NCBI GenBank assembly: GCA_903854795.1
Contig: CAINXF010000013.1
Span: forward strand, 1-10,192
Source of the DNA: Candidatus Kerfeldbacteria bacterium
GTDB taxonomy: Bacteria > Patescibacteriota > Patescibacteriia > SBBC01
DNA length: 10,192 bases
Reading direction: 5' to 3'
Positions within the stretch are counted from its first letter, which is position 1. Each line of letters begins with the position of its first letter. This document shows, piece by piece, positions 1 to 10,192 of this stretch. The position numbers and the translations under genes are program-made. The notes under the pieces are model-generated. The model did no database searches. It saw nothing but the letters and a program-made list of their open reading frames with translations, and had not been told where the DNA came from.

Positions 1-1212
1 AAGAAGCTGTCGAAAAAAAGCGGTTCGAAAAAGAGCGCTCCCCATAGGGCTAAGGCGAAAGTGATTTTGCATGCGCGCGTTTCCGTCGTACAGAAGAAGG
101 TGGTCGAAGCACCACACGAGTCGATCGATCAATTGATCTCGAAGGCGCGGGCCCGGGGATTTGTGACGGAAACCGAGATATTGTATGCGCTTCCCGAGCT
201 TGAGGAGTATATTAATGCGTACGAGCAGCTCCTTGACCGTTTCGAGCGCGATGGTGCGAAGGTGATCGAGTCGAACGGCGGCGTGCTCGATATCCATGTC
301 GGACAGCTCAACACGACCGCAAATGAGACCGAGAAGGAGAAGAAGCATCGTGCCCGTGAGGACCGTAACTTCGATCTCGGTGACATCTCGAACGACTCGA
401 TCCAAATGTACTTGCGTGAGATCGGCAAAGTGGCACTTCTGACGACCGAGGAAGAGGTGAGTCTCGCGAAGCGGAAGGATAAAGGCGACATCGAGGCACA
501 GAAGAAGCTCGTCGAGGCGAATTTGCGGCTCGTCGTGTCTATCGCGAAGAAGTTCACCGGTCGTTCGCTCTCGCTGCTGGACCTGATCCAGGAGGGGAAT
601 ATCGGCCTGTTCCGCGCGGTCGAGAAGTTCGATTACCGCAAAGGCTACAAGTTCTCGACGTACGCGACGTGGTGGATCCGTCAGGCGATTACGCGCGCGC
701 TCGCCGACCAGTCGCGCACCATCCGTATCCCGGTGCACATGGTCGAGACGATCAACAAGTTCCAACAGGTCGAGCGTCAACTCATCCAGGACCTTGGCCG
801 TGAGCCGCTGCCTGAGGAGATTGCCGCGGAGATGAGCGAGGACGTCGACAAGATCCGTCAGATCATCAAGATCAGCCAGGATACCGTCAGCCTGGAAACG
901 AGCGTCGGGGACAGCGACGAGGAGGACTCAGTGCTCGGTGACTTCATCGAGGACGTGAAGACGATGACCCCGGACCGCGCCGCAGCGATGCAGCTCCTTC
1001 GCGAGCAAGTGCAGGACATCATCCGCGAGCTCAGCCCGCGCGAACAGAAGATCCTCGAGATGCGGTTCGGTTTGCACGATGGCGTCGCACACACGCTCGA
1101 AGAGGTCGGCCAGGAGTTCGGGGTCACCCGCGAGCGCATCCGTCAGATCGAGGCGAAGGCGCTGGAGAAGATCCAGACGCACCGATCGATGAAGAAGTTG
1201 AAGGATTACTAA
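1..1212 (+). CDS. rpoD: RNA polymerase primary sigma factor (sigma-70 / RpoD), 5'-partial
   Basis: Directs core RNA polymerase to housekeeping promoters. The reading frame is open from base 1, so the GTG at 61 is probably internal and the true start lies outside the window; the first 30 or so visible residues are rich in Lys, Arg and Ser. Numbering from the codon at 61: a region 1.1-like segment at about 20-60 ([20 protein letters not shown]), an acidic/charged linker, region 1.2 at about 110-143 ([18 protein letters not shown]), region 2 at about 146-220 with the core-binding and -10 recognition signature ([19 protein letters not shown], then [18 protein letters not shown]), region 3 at about 223-300, and region 4 at about 315-383 with the -35 helix-turn-helix ([20 protein letters not shown]). 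There is no large non-conserved insert between regions 1.2 and 2. It ends at TAA 1210-1212, followed by a strong terminator. Its last codons recur 1.65 kb downstream, so the 3' end may have been replaced. Family assignment is essentially certain. Confidence 0.97.
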
Positions 1213-1213
1213 C
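1174..1213 (+). repeat. Direct repeat, copy 1: functional 3' end of rpoD
   Basis: These 40 bases are the last codons and stop of rpoD (encoding [12 protein letters not shown]). They match 2827-2866 at 34 of 40 positions in the same orientation. Five of the six differences are synonymous and the sixth changes His to Asn. This is the copy joined to the intact gene. Confidence 0.85.
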
Positions 1214-1225
1214 GAAGAACAATTG

Positions 1226-1254
1226 AAAACACCGTCTTGTGACGGTGTTTTTTT
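1226..1254. terminator. Intrinsic terminator, probably bidirectional, between rpoD and the convergent gene
   Basis: An 11-bp perfect stem (arms 1226-1236 and 1241-1251, core ACACCGTC / GACGGTGT) with a TTGT loop runs into a T-run at 1248-1254, 14 bases after the rpoD stop. On the other strand the same stem is followed by TTTT and an AT-rich stretch, so it can also end transcripts of the converging gene at 1266-2711. Confidence 0.9.
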
Positions 1255-1265
1255 GAATAGGTGAT

Positions 1266-2711
1266 TTACGATTTTTTCTCTACTACTTTCACTACACCAG
1301 TAGTGGCATTAACCTCAACCATGTCTCCATCCTTTAATATATGTGTCGCGATTTTAGTGCCGATTACGCACGGTTTCTTCATTTCTCGGGCAATTATTGC
1401 CGCATGACAGGTTATTCCGCCTTCGTCGGTAATAAATGCTGATGCTTTTTCGAGTGCCGGAATAAAGTTTGCAGTGGTCATTATTGCGACAATAATGTCA
1501 CCCCGCTTCACTTTAGAATTATCGTGGGCGGTTTTAATTATACAAACCCTTCCTCTGGCCTTACCTTTATACCCCACGGTGCCAGTTAACCGTCGTAACC
1601 CCGTAGCTTCGCGATTTAGTATTGGTCTTTGACGAATAAATACTTTTGCGTCATCACCCTCAAGAATACGGTCTTTCCCATAATCAAAGAAGACAACAAA
1701 CCCACGTTTCCTTTTTTCTATACAGGCCCCAACATCAAATTGGCCTTCCAGCGCTTGCAGTACTTCCTGCGCACTCAAAAAAAGCAGATCGTAGTAAGGT
1801 ACTTTGAGATGTGTGGCAATTCTCTTGACTAAACTTTGCACGTAGTAGGATGCTTCTTGGAAGAAATCAGTTCTTTGAGTACGAAGATACACCATATCTC
1901 TAGTGATCCGAACCATTTTCTTATCCTCTATACTAAAATCACTAATGGCTTTTTTAATTCTATTCTCAACTTTCTTCCTGTGTTCAATTCTTATGTTTAG
2001 ATCACGTTCTGCATTGGCGGGGCTGAAATTAGAACGTCTAATATGTACGTCATGAGCGCTCCATGGTTCACCTACAAAGAACCTGAGAGCGAGCCAGCCG
2101 TACTTTCGCGCGTGCCGCTCTTCCTCTTTCAATCCTCCCTTTGAAATGCATAGCCGAAGAAGGTCGTCCTGTTCTTTTTCTCCTTCGGTAAGCCGGTTGG
2201 CTTGGGAAATTACCTCAAGGAGTTCAGGCTGCTCTTTTTTGTCGGCGTATCTTTTAACTACGGCATGAGCTAATTCTGATATGGGATTTTCGAATAATAC
2301 TAAATTTTGAAAAATCATGTAGTTACTGGCCGCGGTCACATAGCTACTCAACAAATCACGCATCTCATTGGGTAGCAAGTTCTTTTTACGAGAAGCGGCT
2401 TCTATTGATTTTGCGGTGTTGATAAGTTGATTCCCTAGCTCAAAGCATTTAATAAATATTGTTTCAGTGTACACATCCCCATGCTTGTTGAATTTCTTCG
2501 TAAGTCCCTCAGTAACTTTTTTTTGGTCGCTTGTTATGACAAAAAAATAGTTATTAGTATATAACCACCGTACCGCGGCCTTCCATCCAAGAATTTCCTT
2601 AACGTTACTTTTATCTATCATCCCCCTGATAATAATTGACGATGCAAAATATGGCTCGATCCTCTCGACCATATATGTCATCTCATCATTTTGAATATCT
2701 TTGATTTTCAT
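1266..2711 (-). CDS. Orphan PEP-utilising (phosphohistidine swivelling) domain protein
   Basis: The C-terminal ~95 residues form the swivelling phosphohistidine domain of PEP synthase, pyruvate phosphate dikinase and rifampin phosphotransferase, with the signature DEGGITCHAAIIARE; the phospho-accepting His is residue 436 from the chosen start. Before it is a helical segment (RTQRTDFFQEASYYVQSLVK, then a LSAQEVLQAL-like stretch) resembling the linker that precedes this domain in rifampin phosphotransferase-like enzymes. The N-terminal ~250 residues are not recognised, and no ATP-grasp domain or PEP/pyruvate-binding barrel is visible, so phosphate must come from elsewhere or catalysis has been lost. 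The start is uncertain: ATG at 2711 (481 aa) was chosen over an in-frame TTG at 2744 (492 aa) and a later ATG; none has a clear ribosome binding site. The gene is clearly AT-richer than everything else in the window and lies between two rpoD tails, which suggests acquisition by transfer. Function unknown. Confidence 0.85.
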   Translation of the reverse strand: MKIKDIQNDEMTYMVERIEPYFASSIIIRGMIDKSNVKEILGWKAAVRWLYTNNYFFVITSDQKKVTEGLTKKFNKHGDVYTETIFIKCFELGNQLINTAKSIEAASRKKNLLPNEMRDLLSSYVTAASNYMIFQNLVLFENPISELAHAVVKRYADKKEQPELLEVISQANRLTEGEKEQDDLLRLCISKGGLKEEERHARKYGWLALRFFVGEPWSAHDVHIRRSNFSPANAERDLNIRIEHRKKVENRIKKAISDFSIEDKKMVRITRDMVYLRTQRTDFFQEASYYVQSLVKRIATHLKVPYYDLLFLSAQEVLQALEGQFDVGACIEKRKRGFVVFFDYGKDRILEGDDAKVFIRQRPILNREATGLRRLTGTVGYKGKARGRVCIIKTAHDNSKVKRGDIIVAIMTTANFIPALEKASAFITDEGGITCHAAIIAREMKKPCVIGTKIATHILKDGDMVEVNATTGVVKVVEKKS

Positions 2712-2813
2712 TTTTTGGGAAAAATAGCTATTTCGGTACGACAATTGTGGATCTGAAACAGTGAGGAATAGTGCGATCTGCGATGGCGGTTTGAATGGAA
2801 TCCCATCGTTGCA

Positions 2814-2847
2814 AGTATAGTATATTCAGACGAACCGGTCGATGAAG
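2814..2847 (-). promoter_or_regulatory. Possible promoter for the phosphohistidine-domain gene
   Basis: On the - strand there are two overlapping TATACT -10-like hexamers (2819-2824 and 2814-2819). The -35 side, about 16-17 bases upstream, offers only a weak match (TTCATC) lying inside the rpoD remnant. This would give a 5' leader of about 100 bases before the ATG at 2711. It is the only AT-rich, TATA-like tract in the 212-bp gap. Weak support. Confidence 0.25.
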
Positions 2848-2866
2848 AAACTAAAGGACTACTAAC
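2824..2866 (+). pseudogene. Detached remnant of the rpoD 3' end (last 13 codons and stop)
   Basis: Read in frame, this encodes [13 protein letters not shown] followed by TAA (2863-2865). The end of the intact rpoD is [13 protein letters not shown]. The frame closes at TAG 2818-2820 two codons upstream of the Ile codon, so it is not expressed as part of a gene. The 40 bp from 2827 match 1174-1213 at 85% identity with almost only synonymous changes, meaning both copies were once under selection as real rpoD ends. It is most simply read as the original chromosomal 3' end left behind when an AT-rich segment with its own version of the end entered, or as the relic of a second rpoD. Chance similarity is very unlikely given matching reading frame and stop. 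Confidence 0.8.
2827..2866 (+). repeat. Direct repeat, copy 2: displaced rpoD end
   Basis: Partner of 1174-1213 in the same orientation, 34 of 40 bases identical. The two copies bracket a 1.61-kb AT-rich interval with one cargo gene. The length and placement resemble attachment-site duplications of elements that enter the 3' ends of genes, but no recombinase gene or short inverted core was found, so this role is inferred. Confidence 0.7.
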
Positions 2867-2894
2867 AACGACTGGCGAAATGCCAGTCGGTTGT
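2865..2894. other. Hairpin directly after the rpoD remnant
   Basis: Arms 2865-2876 and 2882-2894 (core CGACTGGC / GCCAGTCG) pair over 12 bp with one bulged G and a GAAAT loop. It begins at the remnant's stop codon, so it is probably the former rpoD terminator. It could now serve the lipoprotein gene that ends at 2924 on the other strand. Neither strand has a T-run directly after the stem, so it is not a textbook intrinsic terminator. Confidence 0.6.
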
Positions 2895-2923
2895 CGAGGT
2901 GGTCGCGAGAGTTGCCGCGGCTG

Positions 2924-3346
2924 TTATTTTTTTTCCACGGGTACCCAGGATTTTACGAATCCGCAGAGACTGAAGACCGTCCGGCAGCACGAGGCGTACT
3001 GTGGGTTGCAGACGCTCGAGAACGTTACGGTGATCGAGTCACCGACGTAGGGCCGTAATTCTTCCTTCATTGAATCGTACGTGTTTGTGCCGATCTCCTC
3101 GCCGTCGGGAAGGAGGATGCCGTATGATTCGCTTGGTGTACCGTAGGATTTTACGAAGACCTGCCCCGTGACGATTCGTTGCGTGTTCGAATTGACGTTT
3201 GCGACATTGGTATTCGAAGGTTGATTGGTGGTGGCCGAGTTGTTATTGTTAGTATTCGTTGCGGCCTTGCCACACCCTGTCACGAACAGGAGCGTGGCGG
3301 TGAACAGGAGCGCGCACGAAGTCAGTCGAGCTGAGGAAGTGCTCAT
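2924..3346 (-). CDS. Small putative lipoprotein with Asn/Thr-rich linker
   Basis: This 140-residue protein has a lipoprotein signal: a short polar start, a hydrophobic core (CALLFTATLLFV) and a lipobox VTGC with Cys25 as the predicted lipidation site. Residues 29-56 form a low-complexity Asn/Thr/Ser linker, followed by a compact domain (57-140) beginning TGQVFVKSYG, with an OB-fold-like feel (glycine-punctuated strands, YVGDSITVTF). Four cysteines (113, 120, 121, 128) cluster near the C-terminus and could form disulfides or bind metal; that is inference. The domain is not a family I can name. The ATG at 3346 lies 11 bp after the stop of the gene upstream, so it is probably the last gene of the five-gene unit. 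No Shine-Dalgarno sequence precedes it. Lipoprotein call fairly secure, role unknown. Confidence 0.8.
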   Translation of the reverse strand: MSTSSARLTSCALLFTATLLFVTGCGKAATNTNNNNSATTNQPSNTNVANVNSNTQRIVTGQVFVKSYGTPSESYGILLPDGEEIGTNTYDSMKEELRPYVGDSITVTFSSVCNPQYASCCRTVFSLCGFVKSWVPVEKK

Positions 3347-3357
3347 GATCGCAGTGG

Positions 3358-4020
3358 TTAGACGGCAGGAATACGTTTGATGATGGCGGCCGCATCGTGG
3401 AAGAACACGATACCTGAGATGAAATCGGCTGGTACGGCGCCCATGTTCACCATGGTCGTCAGCAGGCCGACCCAGTAGTCGTTCACGAAGAGGAGTTGCG
3501 GAGGTTGCTCCGGATGGTAGTGGAAGTTCTTTTGGTGGATCATGGCGCGAAGCAGCACGGAGAACGTACCAATGCCGCCGCGGAACACGATGACGATCGG
3601 GGCGCAGGTCGCGAGCAGCTCAGTGCGCGAGGTGGGGGAGTTCACGATCGCGACCGGACCCTCCTGTGATTCAGACCTCAACTCTGGGAATATGACGCCA
3701 ACCGCGCGTCCTTTTGGTGCTTCGGCCGATGCCGCCATGACGCCCGTGGTCCTTCCGCCGCTCAACACGATGCCGCCGCGTTCCATCACTGCCGCGACCA
3801 CGGCTCGCGCTTGGTCCACGTCAGGATGACCCGCGTCGGTGCTGCCACCGCCGTTGATCGATACGACCAGTCCCGAGCTTTCGTAGGTGCTGAGAAGGTC
3901 CTTCGATGAGCAATGAATGGCGAGCCATGCGTTCGGCGCGGTAGCCTCGGCTTCTTGAAGGAGTCCGCCGAAGAAACGCCGTTTTTTCTTCAAGTAGAGT
4001 TGTCCTTTTTTCATGGCCAT
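3358..4020 (-). CDS. SLOG/LOG-like Rossmann-fold nucleotide-binding protein
   Basis: A 220-residue cytoplasmic protein of the SLOG superfamily (LOG lysine decarboxylase-like, TIGR00725-type, DprA relatives). Visible motifs: a first strand and glycine-rich turn (VVSINGGGSTDAG, 52-64), then IVLSGGRTTGVMAASAE (84-100), equivalent to the 'GGG..GLM' segment, Arg132 in TSRTELLATCAPIVIVF, and FRGGIGTFSVL (146-156) at the place of the PGGxGTxxE motif. The proline is replaced by Arg and the motif Glu by Val155, so cytokinin-riboside phosphoribohydrolase activity of true LOG enzymes should not be assumed; nucleotide or derivative binding is more likely. The N-terminus is strongly basic (KKGQLYLKKKRR). 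The ATG at 4020 is 3 bp after the permease stop, so translation is probably coupled. A second Met at residue 3 is an alternative start. Confidence 0.8.
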   Translation of the reverse strand: MAMKKGQLYLKKKRRFFGGLLQEAEATAPNAWLAIHCSSKDLLSTYESSGLVVSINGGGSTDAGHPDVDQARAVVAAVMERGGIVLSGGRTTGVMAASAEAPKGRAVGVIFPELRSESQEGPVAIVNSPTSRTELLATCAPIVIVFRGGIGTFSVLLRAMIHQKNFHYHPEQPPQLLFVNDYWVGLLTTMVNMGAVPADFISGIVFFHDAAAIIKRIPAV

Positions 4021-6039: not shown

Positions 6040-9000
6040 CTATTTCTTTATTAGTGTACCAATATTCCCGAGCCAGGAGAAGGTGTTCTGGAGGTTCGCG
6101 ACGATGAGCTGAAGGAACGACTGTTGCTTTTGGCTGGTGAGGACGGTGTTCGAGCTCGATTTGGTCTGGTTACCCGCCTTATCACGCGAGACGACTCGGA
6201 AGTGGTAGGTCTTCGCCTGCGCGAGGTCCGAGATGACGATGAGGTGATCGAGCACGAGCTCTTGGTTCTCGTCGGTCGCGCTACTAAACTCGACGCCGGA
6301 TATGCCGACACCATACTCGACCTTCGAGGTCGCTGCCTCGTTCGTCTTCCATGAGACGACGATCTGGACTTTAGAGGTTTCCCCGGAACCGACGCTGTTC
6401 GATTCCGACTTGACGCCGAAGATCTGTGGCGGGGTCGTGTCTTGCAGCGTGGTGAACGTCTGCTCGGTCGAGACTGCTTCATAGCCGAATTGGTCGGATC
6501 CGTGGATCTTGAACTTGTACTTCGCGTCGTCGTTCAGGCCGAAGAGAAGGATGTCGTGGTCGGTGACGAGCGTGGCGTTGCCCTGCGTTTTCGGGGCGAT
6601 GTTGTCGCCGTAGTACTCGACCGATGATGTGGTCGGTACGTTGGTCTTCCAGATGATCTCGGTCTGGCCCTGCGATTTGTTCTTCGTCGATATATCGCTG
6701 ACCTTCGGGAAGGTGAGCGTCGTGAACTGGTAATCATCGGACGTGATCGGGTTGCCGTTGCGATCGAGCCCGCCGAGTCGCACGTGATAGGTTGTGCCGT
6801 CGTTGAGGTTCTCGAACTTTACCGTGTGTTTGACGCTGAAGGTCGTGCTGTCGGCAGTGTAGGTGAGGCCGTATTTCGTCGAGGTGCCGTAGTTGACGAT
6901 CGCGGTCGCCTCCTTGTTCACTTCCCACGTGATGACGGCGTCCTTGAGCCGGACATCGCTGATGTTGACGTTCATGACGCGCGGCGCCTCGAGCGTGGTG
7001 AACGACGCGACGTCCGAACGGGCGACGTTCTGATCAACGTCGATGCTCTTGATGCTAAAGTAGTAGGTCGATACCGCGTTGAGCCCTGTTACTTTGACGC
7101 TGTGGTCGGTGACCATGTCGGCGGTGCCTTGCTCCTCGGTAAGGTTGGTCGCGCCGTCACCGAAGTCGACGAACGATGAGGCTTGCCGTTCGGTGCTCCA
7201 GGTGATCACGGCCGAGAACGAGTCCGGTGTTGCGGCAGGCGCTTTCGTGATGGTGGGCGGCGAGGTGTACCGGCCTTCCGGGATCTTTGCGACGGCCGAC
7301 GTCAGGGCCGAGATTGCTCCGGCAGAGTCGCTGGCGGTGATCCGGTACGTGTATTTCTTCGTGCTGTCTAATCCGGTATCAAGGTAGCCCGTCGAGCGCG
7401 TCGTCGAGATGATCGTGTATGTCGCGCCGTCGTCATCGGACCGGTTGATGGTGTAGAGCGCGTTGGTGCCGTTCGTCGCTGGCGCGTCCCACGTCAGGGT
7501 GATGCTATATCGCTTTTGGTCGCGGTTGGATGAGTCGGTGATCGTGATGTTCTGTGGTTCGCTCGGCGGTACGGTGTGTGCCTCGAAATCGACCGCGGCA
7601 TAGTTGGCGTAGTTGATGTTACCACCGTCATCGATCGCGACGACGTAGAAGGTATTCGTTCCTTGACGCGTGGCCGCGGCGATCGGACCCACGGTCGTTT
7701 TTGTGGTCGCGATGACGTTTCCTTCGGTTGGCGTCGAGTTGATCGAGTAGCGATAGCCGGCGACCGTGACACCTTCGTCACTCGGTGCCTTCCAGGCGAA
7801 AGTGAAGTTGTTCGATAAACCGTTCGTGGGATCGACGGTGACATTGGTCGGTGCGGACGGTGCGCCGAGCGTTTCGAACGTGAGGTCGCCCGAGAAACCC
7901 TGGTTGCCGTCGACGTCGACCCACTTCGCGCGGTAGTGGTATGTCGTGTTTGGGGTGAGTCCGGTGAGTGCCACTGTATGATCGGATACAAGATCGGAGG
8001 TCCCGGTTTCGCTACCGTATCCCGAGGTCGTGCCGTATTGGACGAACGAGGTCGCGGGGTGGGGGATGACGTTGCCGTCGCGGTCGGAATCATTGAGCGT
8101 CTGCCAGGTGATGTCCGCCGAGCGGATGCGGGCATGTACTTCCGGCTGTCCGTTCATGTTCGGCGCCTTGGTGAATTTGCCTTCAGGTTTTGCGGACACC
8201 GTGTCGCTCGGATCGGAGGTTGCCTCGGCCTCGTCCCGCGCCGTGACGTAGTAGTAGTATGTTTGCGACTGCGTGAGGCCGGTATCGAGGTAGCCGGTTG
8301 CCGTCAGGGTGGCAAGATTGGTGAACGTTACGTTGTCCGTCGAACGGTACAGCGTGTAGAACACGGTGCCGCCGTTCTGGCTTGCTGAGGTGTCCCAGGT
8401 GAGCGTGAGGAGGAAGCGGTGCGTGGCGCGGTCGGACGAGTCGATGATCTTCACGTTGCCGGGGATGGCCGGCGCCGGTGTGTACGCCTCGAAATCGACC
8501 GACGCGTAGTTGGCATAGTTGATGTTGTTCCCGTCATCGACAGCGACCACGTAGAACGTGTTCATGCCCTGTCGCGTGGCTGCCGCGATCGGGCCGACGG
8601 ACGTACCTGTCGTGAAATGTGTATTACTGGACGTCGGTGTTGAGTTGACCGAGTAGTAGTAGCCGCCGATGGTGACGCCTTCGTCACTTGGTGGGCTCCA
8701 AGAGAACGTGAAGCTGTTGGTGACGTTCGTCGTATGGTCGACCTGTACGTTCCGTGGGGCAGATGGCGCGCCTTTGGTCGTGAATGCTGCGTCAGAGGAG
8801 TAACCAGGGTTACCGTCGACGTCGACCCATTTCGCGCGATAGTGATACAGTGTGTTCGGTGTGAGGCCGGTGAGTGAGACGCTGTGTGCGTTCACGAGAT
8901 CGGAGCTGCCGACCTCGCTGCCGTAGCTGTTTGTGATGCCGTATTGGATGAACGATGAGGCGGGGTGCGGGACTGTGTTGCCATGTTGGTCGACGTCGTC

Positions 9001-10192
9001 CTGTGTGAGCCACGTGATCTCGGCAGAACGGATGCGGACCGTTTCGCTCGGGAGCCCTGAAATGGCCGGCGCAACCTTGAATTTTCCTTCAGGCTTCATC
9101 GTCGTGACCGCGGAGTTTCCCGAAATGGTCTGTCCCGATCCAACGGCACGCGCGAAGTACGAATATGTCGTCGAGTTGCTCAAGCTCGTGTCGAGGTAGC
9201 CGAGCGTATTGACGGTCGCGATCTTCGTGTAGTTCGCTGGCGGGTCGTCGGTAGCGTTAGGATTGGTGCAGTTGCTCGTACAGCGATAGACGTTATACCC
9301 TGCGACGCCACTGCCAACGTTCGTCGGTGCGTTCCAGGTTAAGGTCAGGGAGTAGCGACTTGATGCGCGGTCGGACGAGTCGGTCGACTGGAGTTGTTCC
9401 GGAGGGCCAGGCGCGTTCGAAGTGAAGGAATAATCAGCGCTCGTGTAGTTCGCGTAGTCGATGTTGCCGATCGCGTCCTTCGCGACGACGTAGACCGTGT
9501 TGGTCCCTTGTTTCGATGCCGCAGAGAATGCGGCTAACCCGCGTGCTGCTGTCTGCGTGCTTGTGGTCCAGCCGCCATCGGCTGAGGCCGTCGGATTGCC
9601 GCCGGTGTTCGTGCCGCAGGTACCGGCTGACGGTACCACGTTGATCGTATAGCAGTACTGGAGGATGTCGCTCGCAGTGCAGGGCGTCATACCGAGACAG
9701 GTGTGGGGGAGTGTCCAGTTGATGGCGAACGAGTCGGTGTCGGTTTGGTGGTCGGGCGTTACCGTCACGCTTTGCGGTACGGTCGGTGCGGGTCCTGTGT
9801 AGAAGTAACCGGTCGAAGCATAGGCGCTGGCATTGTTGAGTGCATTGTCTTGGGCCTCAACGTAGAAGGTGTTCACGCGGTTTTGGTAATGTGCCACGTT
9901 GCTGATCGTACAGGTGCCGCTGGTACAGATCGTCGCCGCGGTGACGCACGTGTCACCTTCGGTGCCGCGATGGTAGCAGTAATTTTTTACTCCCGACGGG
10001 CCGACGTCGCCCACGTCCGACCAGGTGAACTGGAACGTGTCGGTCGATAACATGTAGGTCGTGACCGAAAGATCGGAGATGTTGTTCGGTTTGCTTCCGT
10101 CGACCTTGAAGGTGAACGCGTCGACGGGGGATGTGGTCACGTTGCCATTGCGGTCCTTCGTTTTGATCCGGAGGTAGTACACGCCATCGGTG
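6040..10192 (-). CDS. Giant fibronectin type III repeat surface protein, N-terminus outside window
   Basis: At least 1384 residues; the frame is open to the window's right edge, and the GTG at 10180-10182 is simply an internal Val codon in TDGVYYLRIK. The visible part is a chain of about 13 FN3-like beta-sandwich domains, recognised by recurring strands such as FTFSWSPPSDEGV, SLTLTWNAP, HSVSLTGLTPNTLYHYRAKW and DVDGN turns. Numbering from 10182: a first domain (1-129), then three super-repeats (130-470, 471-772, 773-1064) of three domains each, then three further FN3 domains of about 90 residues (1065, 1155 and 1245 onward) of the purple-acid-phosphatase N-terminal type (W.T...A.S.VEYG...H). 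A Lys/Gln/Ser-rich stretch and a 27-residue amphipathic tail (SFLQLIVANLQNTFSWLGNI) close the protein. All ten cysteines lie before residue 306. No catalytic domain, LPXTG or clear C-terminal transmembrane anchor is visible. Likely secreted or surface-displayed, possibly in adhesion. It is first of the five closely spaced genes seen here. Confidence 0.9.
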   Translation of the reverse strand, partial: TDGVYYLRIKTKDRNGNVTTSPVDAFTFKVDGSKPNNISDLSVTTYMLSTDTFQFTWSDVGDVGPSGVKNYCYHRGTEGDTCVTAATICTSGTCTISNVAHYQNRVNTFYVEAQDNALNNASAYASTGYFYTGPAPTVPQSVTVTPDHQTDTDSFAINWTLPHTCLGMTPCTASDILQYCYTINVVPSAGTCGTNTGGNPTASADGGWTTSTQTAARGLAAFSAASKQGTNTVYVVAKDAIGNIDYANYTSADYSFTSNAPGPPEQLQSTDSSDRASSRYSLTLTWNAPTNVGSGVAGYNVYRCTSNCTNPNATDDPPANYTKIATVNTLGYLDTSLSNSTTYSYFARAVGSGQTISGNSAVTTMKPEGKFKVAPAISGLPSETVRIRSAEITWLTQDDVDQHGNTVPHPASSFIQYGITNSYGSEVGSSDLVNAHSVSLTGLTPNTLYHYRAKWVDVDGNPGYSSDAAFTTKGAPSAPRNVQVDHTTNVTNSFTFSWSPPSDEGVTIGGYYYSVNSTPTSSNTHFTTGTSVGPIAAATRQGMNTFYVVAVDDGNNINYANYASVDFEAYTPAPAIPGNVKIIDSSDRATHRFLLTLTWDTSASQNGGTVFYTLYRSTDNVTFTNLATLTATGYLDTGLTQSQTYYYYVTARDEAEATSDPSDTVSAKPEGKFTKAPNMNGQPEVHARIRSADITWQTLNDSDRDGNVIPHPATSFVQYGTTSGYGSETGTSDLVSDHTVALTGLTPNTTYHYRAKWVDVDGNQGFSGDLTFETLGAPSAPTNVTVDPTNGLSNNFTFAWKAPSDEGVTVAGYRYSINSTPTEGNVIATTKTTVGPIAAATRQGTNTFYVVAIDDGGNINYANYAAVDFEAHTVPPSEPQNITITDSSNRDQKRYSITLTWDAPATNGTNALYTINRSDDDGATYTIISTTRSTGYLDTGLDSTKKYTYRITASDSAGAISALTSAVAKIPEGRYTSPPTITKAPAATPDSFSAVITWSTERQASSFVDFGDGATNLTEEQGTADMVTDHSVKVTGLNAVSTYYFSIKSIDVDQNVARSDVASFTTLEAPRVMNVNISDVRLKDAVITWEVNKEATAIVNYGTSTKYGLTYTADSTTFSVKHTVKFENLNDGTTYHVRLGGLDRNGNPITSDDYQFTTLTFPKVSDISTKNKSQGQTEIIWKTNVPTTSSVEYYGDNIAPKTQGNATLVTDHDILLFGLNDDAKYKFKIHGSDQFGYEAVSTEQTFTTLQDTTPPQIFGVKSESNSVGSGETSKVQIVVSWKTNEAATSKVEYGVGISGVEFSSATDENQELVLDHLIVISDLAQAKTYHFRVVSRDKAGNQTKSSSNTVLTSQKQQSFLQLIVANLQNTFSWLGNIGTLIKK
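6133..6990 (-). repeat. C-terminal FN3 array, three ~90-residue domains
   Basis: Residues about 1065-1350. Each domain shows a W..N..A.{T/S}..V.YG core, a conserved H before strand F (KHTVKF, DHDILLF, DHLIVI), a TYH/KYKF strand and a D..GN or FGY turn. Spacing between domain starts is 90 residues twice. They diverge more from each other than the super-repeat units do, suggesting an older expansion. Confidence 0.75.
6991..7866 (-). repeat. FN3 super-repeat unit 3 (292 residues)
   Basis: Residues 773-1064. A begins GAPSAPTNVTVD with SDEGVTVAGYRYSINSTPT, B carries DSSNRDQKRYSITLTW, C begins PEGRYTSPP. A and B closely match unit 2; the C domain is shorter and has lost the DRDGN-PHPA insertion present in units 1 and 2, so it looks like the C-terminal FN3 type. 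Confidence 0.8.
7867..8772 (-). repeat. FN3 super-repeat unit 2 (302 residues)
   Basis: Residues 471-772. A begins GAPSAPRNVQVD and carries SDEGVT and AAATRQGMNTFYVVAVDD; B carries DSSDRATHRFLLTLTW; C begins PEGKFTKAP. The GAPSAP, DSSDR and PEG markers lie exactly 906 bp from those of unit 3, so units 2 and 3 are in perfect register at these points. Confidence 0.85.
8773..9795 (-). repeat. FN3 super-repeat unit 1 (341 residues)
   Basis: Residues 130-470. The order is an A domain (starting PAPTVPQSVTVTPD), a B domain (DSSDRASSRYSLTLTW) and a C domain (starting PEGKFKVAPAIS and ending in VDVDGNPGYSS). It is 39 residues longer than unit 2, mainly from cysteine-bearing insertions in A and B. The C domain is close in sequence to that of unit 2. 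Confidence 0.8.

Follow-up and report, generated by a model that had tools for sequence, protein, structure and literature searches.

Short inserts between duplicated gene ends in Candidatus Kerfeldbacteria: possible one-gene mobile cassettes

The 10,192-nucleotide contig CAINXF010000013.1 of a Candidatus Kerfeldbacteria bacterium (assembly GCA_903854795.1) raises the question of why the end of rpoD, the gene of the primary sigma factor, occurs there twice with one gene in between. The entire contig is the window analysed here, and it belongs to a genome of 1.07 Mb in 211 contigs (G000). We propose, with a probability of about 55%, that the DNA between the two rpoD ends is a mobile one-gene cassette that entered by a single crossover in the last codons of the gene and restored the gene with a tail that it carried. 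Six tail-flanked cassettes of this kind were accepted in the order, at five target genes in three genomes (G000, G005 and G009). The initial annotation had singled out the sigma factor gene as an unusual target; a special role of rpoD is not supported, as the same anatomy is found at four other genes.

The duplicated rpoD end

The window rpoD (1–1212, plus strand) is open at its 5' end where the contig starts. It contains five sigma-70 Pfam domains and is, in full-length matches, 83% and 81% identical to rpoD of the genomes G001 and G002. Codons -13 to stop (1171–1212, plus strand; codon table) form tail 1, which is attL-like. A second copy of the same codons (2824–2865, plus strand), located by genome match and codon table, forms the attR-like tail 2. 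The two tails are identical in frame at 35 of 42 bases, and five of the six codon changes are synonymous. The frame and the synonymous changes had been described correctly in the initial annotation; its 85% over 40 bases becomes, according to where the comparison begins, 33/40 (82.5%), 33/39 or 35/42, and the copy ends at 2865, not 2866. The identity of 33/40 compares with a best value of 25/40 in 60 codon-shuffled controls. A search of positions 2780–2900 against their own genome (E<=0.001) returned two matches only, the query itself and the end of rpoD (84%, 43 bases). The longest run identical in both tails, TCGATGAAGAA (1186–1196, plus strand), is the probable crossover zone. Tail 1 completes an rpoD of unchanged length, and the last seven residues are identical whether they are read from the joined empty site or from the filled site. 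The DNA between the tails, of about 1.6 kb, has a GC content of 0.408, compared with 0.578 on its upstream and 0.57 on its downstream side. It contains one substantial open reading frame (ORF) on the minus strand (1266–2744), with a 67-residue ORF on the opposite strand of the same stretch; this bears out the earlier description of an AT-rich one-gene stretch.

Ten genomes of the order were compared; eight gave an rpoD tail match, and among these the window genome and G009 have two tails. In G009 the second tail lies 2.06 kb downstream of the first and is identical to it at 34 of 40 positions. The tails enclose one reverse-strand gene, and a hairpin follows either of them. The cargo of 645 residues has LVIVD repeats and a bacterial Ig-like domain and is unrelated to that of the window. 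Tail 2 starts at codon -12 in G009 and at codon -13 or -12 in the window, such that both boundaries fall within one codon of each other. All differences in codons -5 to -1 are synonymous in both pairs (eight nucleotide changes in total), where random changes in the last codons of rpoD would be synonymous in 15–30% of cases. No second tail was seen in the six other relatives for which rpoD is followed by available sequence (2.4 to about 11 kb). The proposal of the initial annotation that DNA had entered the 3' end of a gene and restored it is thus supported: other cargo does occur between two rpoD tails, and there are relatives whose rpoD has a single tail.

The neighbourhood of rpoD allows the G009 insert to be placed. 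A tRNA-Asn(GTT) gene lies downstream of rpoD at all seven loci of order relatives (L033–L039), 161–1048 bases away in six of them. The corresponding distances in G009 are 3064 bases for tail 1 and 963 bases for tail 2. Because tail 2 stands at the usual distance and tail 1 does not, the insert lies between rpoD and its ancestral neighbour. The same tRNA gene also follows rpoD at nine other loci of the class that were chosen for scanning, including L119, L121 and L122. Next to the tRNA gene of G009, 1.1 kb beyond tail 2, is a gene for a 304-residue protein with a resolvase N-terminal domain (L039:4597–5511, contig C44).

Second rpoD tails are rare in wider surveys. These surveys used tail patterns and detect only genomes whose rpoD tail fits the pattern, such that part of the genomes is visible. 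In a class survey 135 of 380 genomes matched, and two same-strand matches on one contig were found only in G000 and G009. Another class survey matched 156 of 380 genomes, with two matches on one contig only in G000 among the matches listed. In this second class survey G178 also had two matches on one strand. In a survey of the phylum (51 of 379 genomes matched) only G000 had two same-strand matches on one contig, G009 being outside the draw. Among 13 named rpoD loci (L116–L128) one has a second tail, and this locus, L118, is that of G009. Two rpoD tail patterns found no match in viral contigs, and the searches with rpoD tail patterns revealed no larger element bounded by these ends.

Six inserts at five genes

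The four further cassettes lie in G009 and G005. The target names MacB-like, typA-like and ABC ATPase were assigned by eye, whereas the ABC-2 permease was recognised by Pfam. At the ABC-2 permease (G009:C16, L173) the last 20 codons recur 678 bases on, with 51 of 60 bases identical and all nine codon differences synonymous; the insert has one reverse ORF of 145 residues. At a MacB/FtsX-like permease (G005:C20, L242) 16 codons recur (39/48 identical) beyond a single forward ORF of 102 residues without a Pfam match. At a typA-like gene (G005:C16, L246) the copy comprises 12 codons (30/36 identical), and the one reverse gene encodes a ribonuclease III domain. The insert at an ABC ATPase gene (G005:C13, L250) carries three reverse ORFs, and 46 of 60 bases are identical over the 20 codons counted. 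The 5' part of its tail 2 is decayed and holds a stop codon, and in the ten codons that precede the terminal stop all differences are synonymous. The six inserts span 436–2062 bases, and five of them contain one gene.

In the window a terminator-like hairpin follows tail 1 (1225–1252; fold -17.6 kcal/mol against a shuffled mean of -9.1, standard deviation 2.5), while the one after tail 2 (2866–2893) is weak compared with shuffles (75-base fold -26.5, shuffled mean -22.6, standard deviation 3.2). Across the six cases the hairpin after tail 1 is strong at the ABC-2 permease (z -7.7) and the ABC ATPase (z -6.4), less marked at both rpoD genes and at the typA-like gene (z -2.8, -1.7 and -1.5) and absent at the MacB-like permease (z 0.2). 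Rfam gave no match at gathering score in window positions 1100–3000.

The differences between the tails are distributed unevenly. The six pairs have 44 codon differences, changes of stop codon included, and 35 of them are synonymous. Eight of the nine non-synonymous differences, counted from the codon tables, fall 5' of the identical run, which is the side expected to be the non-coding copy of the cassette; the exception is the last residue of the typA pair. The identical runs measure 11–23 bp, and the repeated tails, referred to below as addresses, 36 to at least 60 bp. A motif, TGCGGWA, is present in four of the six target tails and always lies within the longest identical run. Of 979 gene tails in the same stretches, only 12 have it in their last 45 bases. 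When six tails were drawn at random 2000 times, a 7-mer in which no more than one position was two-fold degenerate was common to four of them in 6 draws.

The cassettes were found by scanning gene tails in partial genomes, in stretches picked by contig number together with some fetched for other reasons; as the tail windows contain spurious ORFs, rates per real gene are approximate. A scan of 115 loci (1832 tails) gave 13 matches, of which three rows are the two rpoD cases and the others look like paralogues or repeats. Of three matches in 40 contigs (1019 tails) two weak ones were dropped and L173 was kept; a reading of L173 as a tandem paralogue was abandoned on closer comparison. Three of 12 pairs from 4260 tails were accepted. 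In 49 loci (4219 tails) 19 pairs were found; L242 was accepted and L230 set aside, the rest being paralogues, repeats or weak as judged from the rows. A further 3517 tails yielded 12 isolated pairs, with L250 as a new case and L198, L212, L213 and L215 not accepted. In 1,175,982 bases from the order, isolated duplications at 30 of 36 positions were found for 8 gene tails among 3234 and for 6 internal windows among 9903. Five of these eight tails were accepted, L250 having been fetched later; L230 and two in the repeat-rich L213 were set aside. The L230 pair belongs to surface proteins with a common C-terminus. At that locus (L230:1–6342, G005:C8) successive, differing surface-type proteins end alike (TLTFVATGTF) and a 41-base repeat lies at the 3' ends; the array may consist of ordinary modular proteins or may be a related array.

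A single-crossover model and its rivals

In the proposed mechanism the free form would be a circle that carries the cargo and, as its address, the end of one particular host gene in a short copy, measured at 36–60 bp. One crossover between the address and the gene end would integrate the circle. Tail 1 would then join a host 5' part to a cassette 3' part, and tail 2, beyond the cargo, a cassette 5' part to a host 3' part. In the window, the part of tail 1 that lies 3' of the crossover would accordingly derive from the cassette, and the 3' part of tail 2 would be the former native end of rpoD. The target protein would stay whole because the cassette tail differs mostly by synonymous changes. 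Such a crossover predicts synonymous differences on its 3' side and freer drift on its 5' side, a pattern that is predicted neither by target-site duplication nor by a decayed second copy or misassembly.

No cassette appears to bring its own enzyme. The whole genomes G000, G005 and G009 were searched for tyrosine recombinases (PF00589) and resolvases (PF00239), and no integrase or resolvase match was found inside any of the six cassettes, in agreement with the earlier statement that the window insert has no integrase. G000, on its contig C21, and G009 each have one tyrosine recombinase match, which is Xer-like. G000 has no resolvase match, and the single one in G009 is the gene beyond rpoD tail 2 described above. 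Three tyrosine recombinase and two resolvase matches in G005 lie outside the cassettes. The recombinase would thus be encoded elsewhere and act in trans, and the Xer-like recombinase of the host or an enzyme from another element are candidates. That four of six tails contain TGCGGWA speaks for a site-specific enzyme of this kind, while the variety of targets and addresses argues for short-homology recombination; we consider the former roughly twice as probable.

Several observations weigh against a mobile cassette. The free circle was not seen, and an empty site within the species or genus was found for none of the cassettes. TGCGGWA was recognised only post hoc, and it is absent from the rpoD tail of the window (which has TGAAGAA) and from the ABC ATPase tail. 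A test with plain 5-mers on the first five cases was weaker: when five tails were drawn at random 3000 times, at least four of them had some 5-mer in common in 72 draws. The two rpoD cassettes have no sequence or motif in common at their inner ends, and no inverted arms surround the rpoD cores (best 5/9 and 6/9). The gene in the MacB-like insert is in forward orientation, and the ABC ATPase insert has three ORFs instead of one. Only the window insert is clearly richer in AT than both flanks; the GC contents of the other five (flanks in brackets) are 0.494 (0.549, 0.491), 0.53 (0.576, 0.476), 0.457 (0.484, 0.556), 0.548 (0.481, 0.548) and 0.436 (0.498, 0.492). In 445,543 bases from other class members 0 of 822 gene tails were duplicated against 2 of 2514 internal windows, and 330,501 bases of G007 gave no accepted case, with an ambiguous L208 pair left uncounted. 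No tRNA was found on the window contig, and the best tRNA-Asn match of the genome is on contig C85. The linkage is lost, and the downstream flank of the window is therefore rearranged and not ancestral. As the flank after tail 2 is not ancestral, it is possible that part of another option named in the initial annotation applies to the window, namely that rpoD and its flank came from a relative by homologous recombination.

The inserts may also have arisen without a dedicated recombinase. Circular or concatenated DNA of relatives, consisting of a gene end and its neighbour, would recombine with the chromosome through one crossover in the shared tail by the recombination of the host, and insertions at gene ends would be the ones noticed because the gene stays unbroken. 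This course of events, which we hold to be somewhat unlikely, would suit the five different target genes, the address lengths, which vary from 36 to 60 bp or more, the identical runs of 11–23 bp, and cassettes devoid of recombinases. It fits poorly with a core common to four of six tails and with two rpoD cassettes that begin within one codon of one another. Random fragments should, moreover, often hold hundreds of bases of the gene, and the accepted addresses are all short; the scans filter for isolated copies, and the unfiltered lists held paralogues and repeats, not long partial copies. That the inserts are decayed islands, in which integrase-bearing elements at gene ends lost the integrase and most genes and left attL/attR remnants, is improbable in our estimation. 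Their anatomy does match the definition of a cis-mobilizable element (CIME) as worded in a passage of PMC5704250, the resolvase gene lies just outside the G009 insert, and tail 2 of the ABC ATPase is partly decayed. Against this stand the compactness of all six remnants (436–2062 bases), five of which have a single gene, their spread over five target genes, and the lack of a full-size element with the same ends in the genomes searched, a search made for rpoD.

Short direct repeats that bracket an insert could also be a transposon target-site duplication, or tail 2 could be the remnant of a second full gene copy, both of which we judge very improbable. A target-site duplication would begin identical and would not diverge mainly synonymously in a non-coding copy. 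Upstream of tail 2 there is no gene-like sequence in five of six cases, and identity falls to chance level beyond codons -13, -12, -19, -15 and -11. The relatives with named records are nearly all metagenome assemblies, which could allow strain variants to be misjoined at a shared tail; with identical runs of 11–23 bp and an anatomy seen in each of three genomes, where most differences are synonymous, such an artefact is very improbable. The window tails do not behave as the template and variable repeats of a diversity-generating retroelement, as their differences are synonymous and not adenine-directed. No reverse transcriptase ORF was noticed by eye in the window contig, and no family search was aimed at it. 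In G001, a few kb past rpoD, there are reverse transcriptase and bAvd-like genes with a near repeat of 34/40 (L033:5752–7128, contig C6), looking like such a retroelement.

Cargo, known systems and implications

The cargo gene of the window (1266–2744, minus strand) is convergent with rpoD and encodes 492 residues, as described by its ORF and by Pfam, structure and profile matches. Residues 413–483 (1296–1508, minus strand) form a PEP-utilizers mobile, or phosphohistidine, domain (PEP, phosphoenolpyruvate; PF00391, E 1.7e-23), in which a histidine that is invariant across an alignment of 24 sequences is kept. A profile from this alignment matches rifampin phosphotransferase (5fbs and 5hv1) over residues 83–492. 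The predicted structure (mean predicted local distance difference test score 82.8) has 5fbu as its top fold match (E 1.7e-13, template modelling score 0.51, 15% identity). The resemblance of the cargo, by profile and predicted fold, thus extends to two of the enzyme's three parts, the one that binds the acceptor and the one with the histidine. Rifampin phosphotransferase joins ATP-binding, acceptor-binding and histidine domains in one chain, whereas the cargo has only the last two, and its score of 63.5 bits is far below the NCBIfam cut-off of 999 for rifampin phosphotransferase. Proteins related to the cargo have some match in 43 of 57 class genomes, a count that includes true PEP synthases, and in several class members they are arranged in arrays. 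Arrays of paralogues with a C-terminal PEP-utilizers domain were observed at G000:C54 (L083:2750–10679) and also at L087, L088, L089 and L094. The arrays at G000:C54 and G006:C32 have one separate PPDK_N protein each and may represent a split, multi-acceptor phosphotransferase. The window cargo could then be an accessory acceptor-plus-phosphohistidine protein, with the PPDK_N protein of the separate array in the same genome as its possible ATP-binding partner. An interpretation of the arrays themselves as cassette arrays was dropped, as L083 has no rpoD-tail-like repeat between genes beyond the shared domain. PADLOC found no match in two cargoes, and no cargo match was found in viral contigs.

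Elsewhere in the window an SLOG cluster 4/lysine-decarboxylase-like protein (3358–4020, minus strand) and an ORF of more than 1380 residues, open at the contig end and with segments that appear repeated by eye (6040–10191, minus strand), were observed. Another contig of the genome (C57, L084:292–1830) encodes a NERD-domain protein and a DpnI-family restriction enzyme at a GC content of about 0.355 in a contig of 0.52.

Many islands reconstitute the gene they enter, according to passages in PMC8409611 and PMC12884075. Elements at 3' ends such as SGI1 (Salmonella genomic island 1) at trmE and elements at yicC are like the cassettes in that a coding gene is entered near its 3' end, is usable afterwards and is bordered by direct att repeats. 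These elements measure 20–40 kb and have their own integrase, whereas the cassettes measure 0.4–2.1 kb, have none and use several targets in one order. In the literature searched, the 3' end of rpoD does not appear as an integration site, and the rpoD passages found there concern housekeeping-gene phylogeny. A CIME keeps attL and attR without genes for integration or transfer (passage in PMC5704250). The cassettes likewise retain attL/attR-like tails, and no integration or transfer genes were detected in them; a CIME is by definition the decay product of a larger element, whereas the cassettes look uniform and compact. What is known, then, is gene-end-restoring elements and integrase-less CIMEs; what is different here is the size, the lack of a recombinase in the cassette and the several targets.

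Two further systems depend on enzymes from elsewhere. Integron gene cassettes mostly hold one gene, are compact from promoter to end and are served by a recombinase in trans. The cassettes described here resemble them in compactness and in mostly having one gene, and their recombinase would also act in trans. Integron cassettes use one attI and form arrays, whereas here single inserts stand at many gene ends. At the two rpoD cores tested no attC-like palindrome was seen (best inverted match 5/9 and 6/9), no integron integrase scored above cut-off among the two proteins compared from G000 and G009, and no integrase gene lies beside the inserts. Integrative mobile elements exploiting Xer (IMEX) have no integrase of their own and use the host XerCD at dif. 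The cassettes share this lack, and the sole tyrosine recombinase match in G000 and in G009 is Xer-like; IMEX insert at one dif site, whereas the cassettes sit in gene ends. We tentatively suggest, as a view that has less than even odds, that Kerfeldbacteria possess a cassette system unlike integrons, in which address-bearing gene circles would dock at TGCGGWA in gene ends throughout the chromosome, repair the gene that they enter and add about one gene each, through one recombinase acting in trans.

The wider question is how ultra-small Patescibacteria, whose genomes are tiny and hold few mobile elements that can be recognised, gain genes. A simple and cheap search rule follows, in which the last 12–20 codons of a gene are sought again in frame 0.4–2 kb downstream with synonymous changes. 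The cassettes lead one to expect circular free forms, unoccupied sites and a recombinase that acts in trans, and six of them at five genes in one order would offer a testable footprint of gene gain in Patescibacteria.

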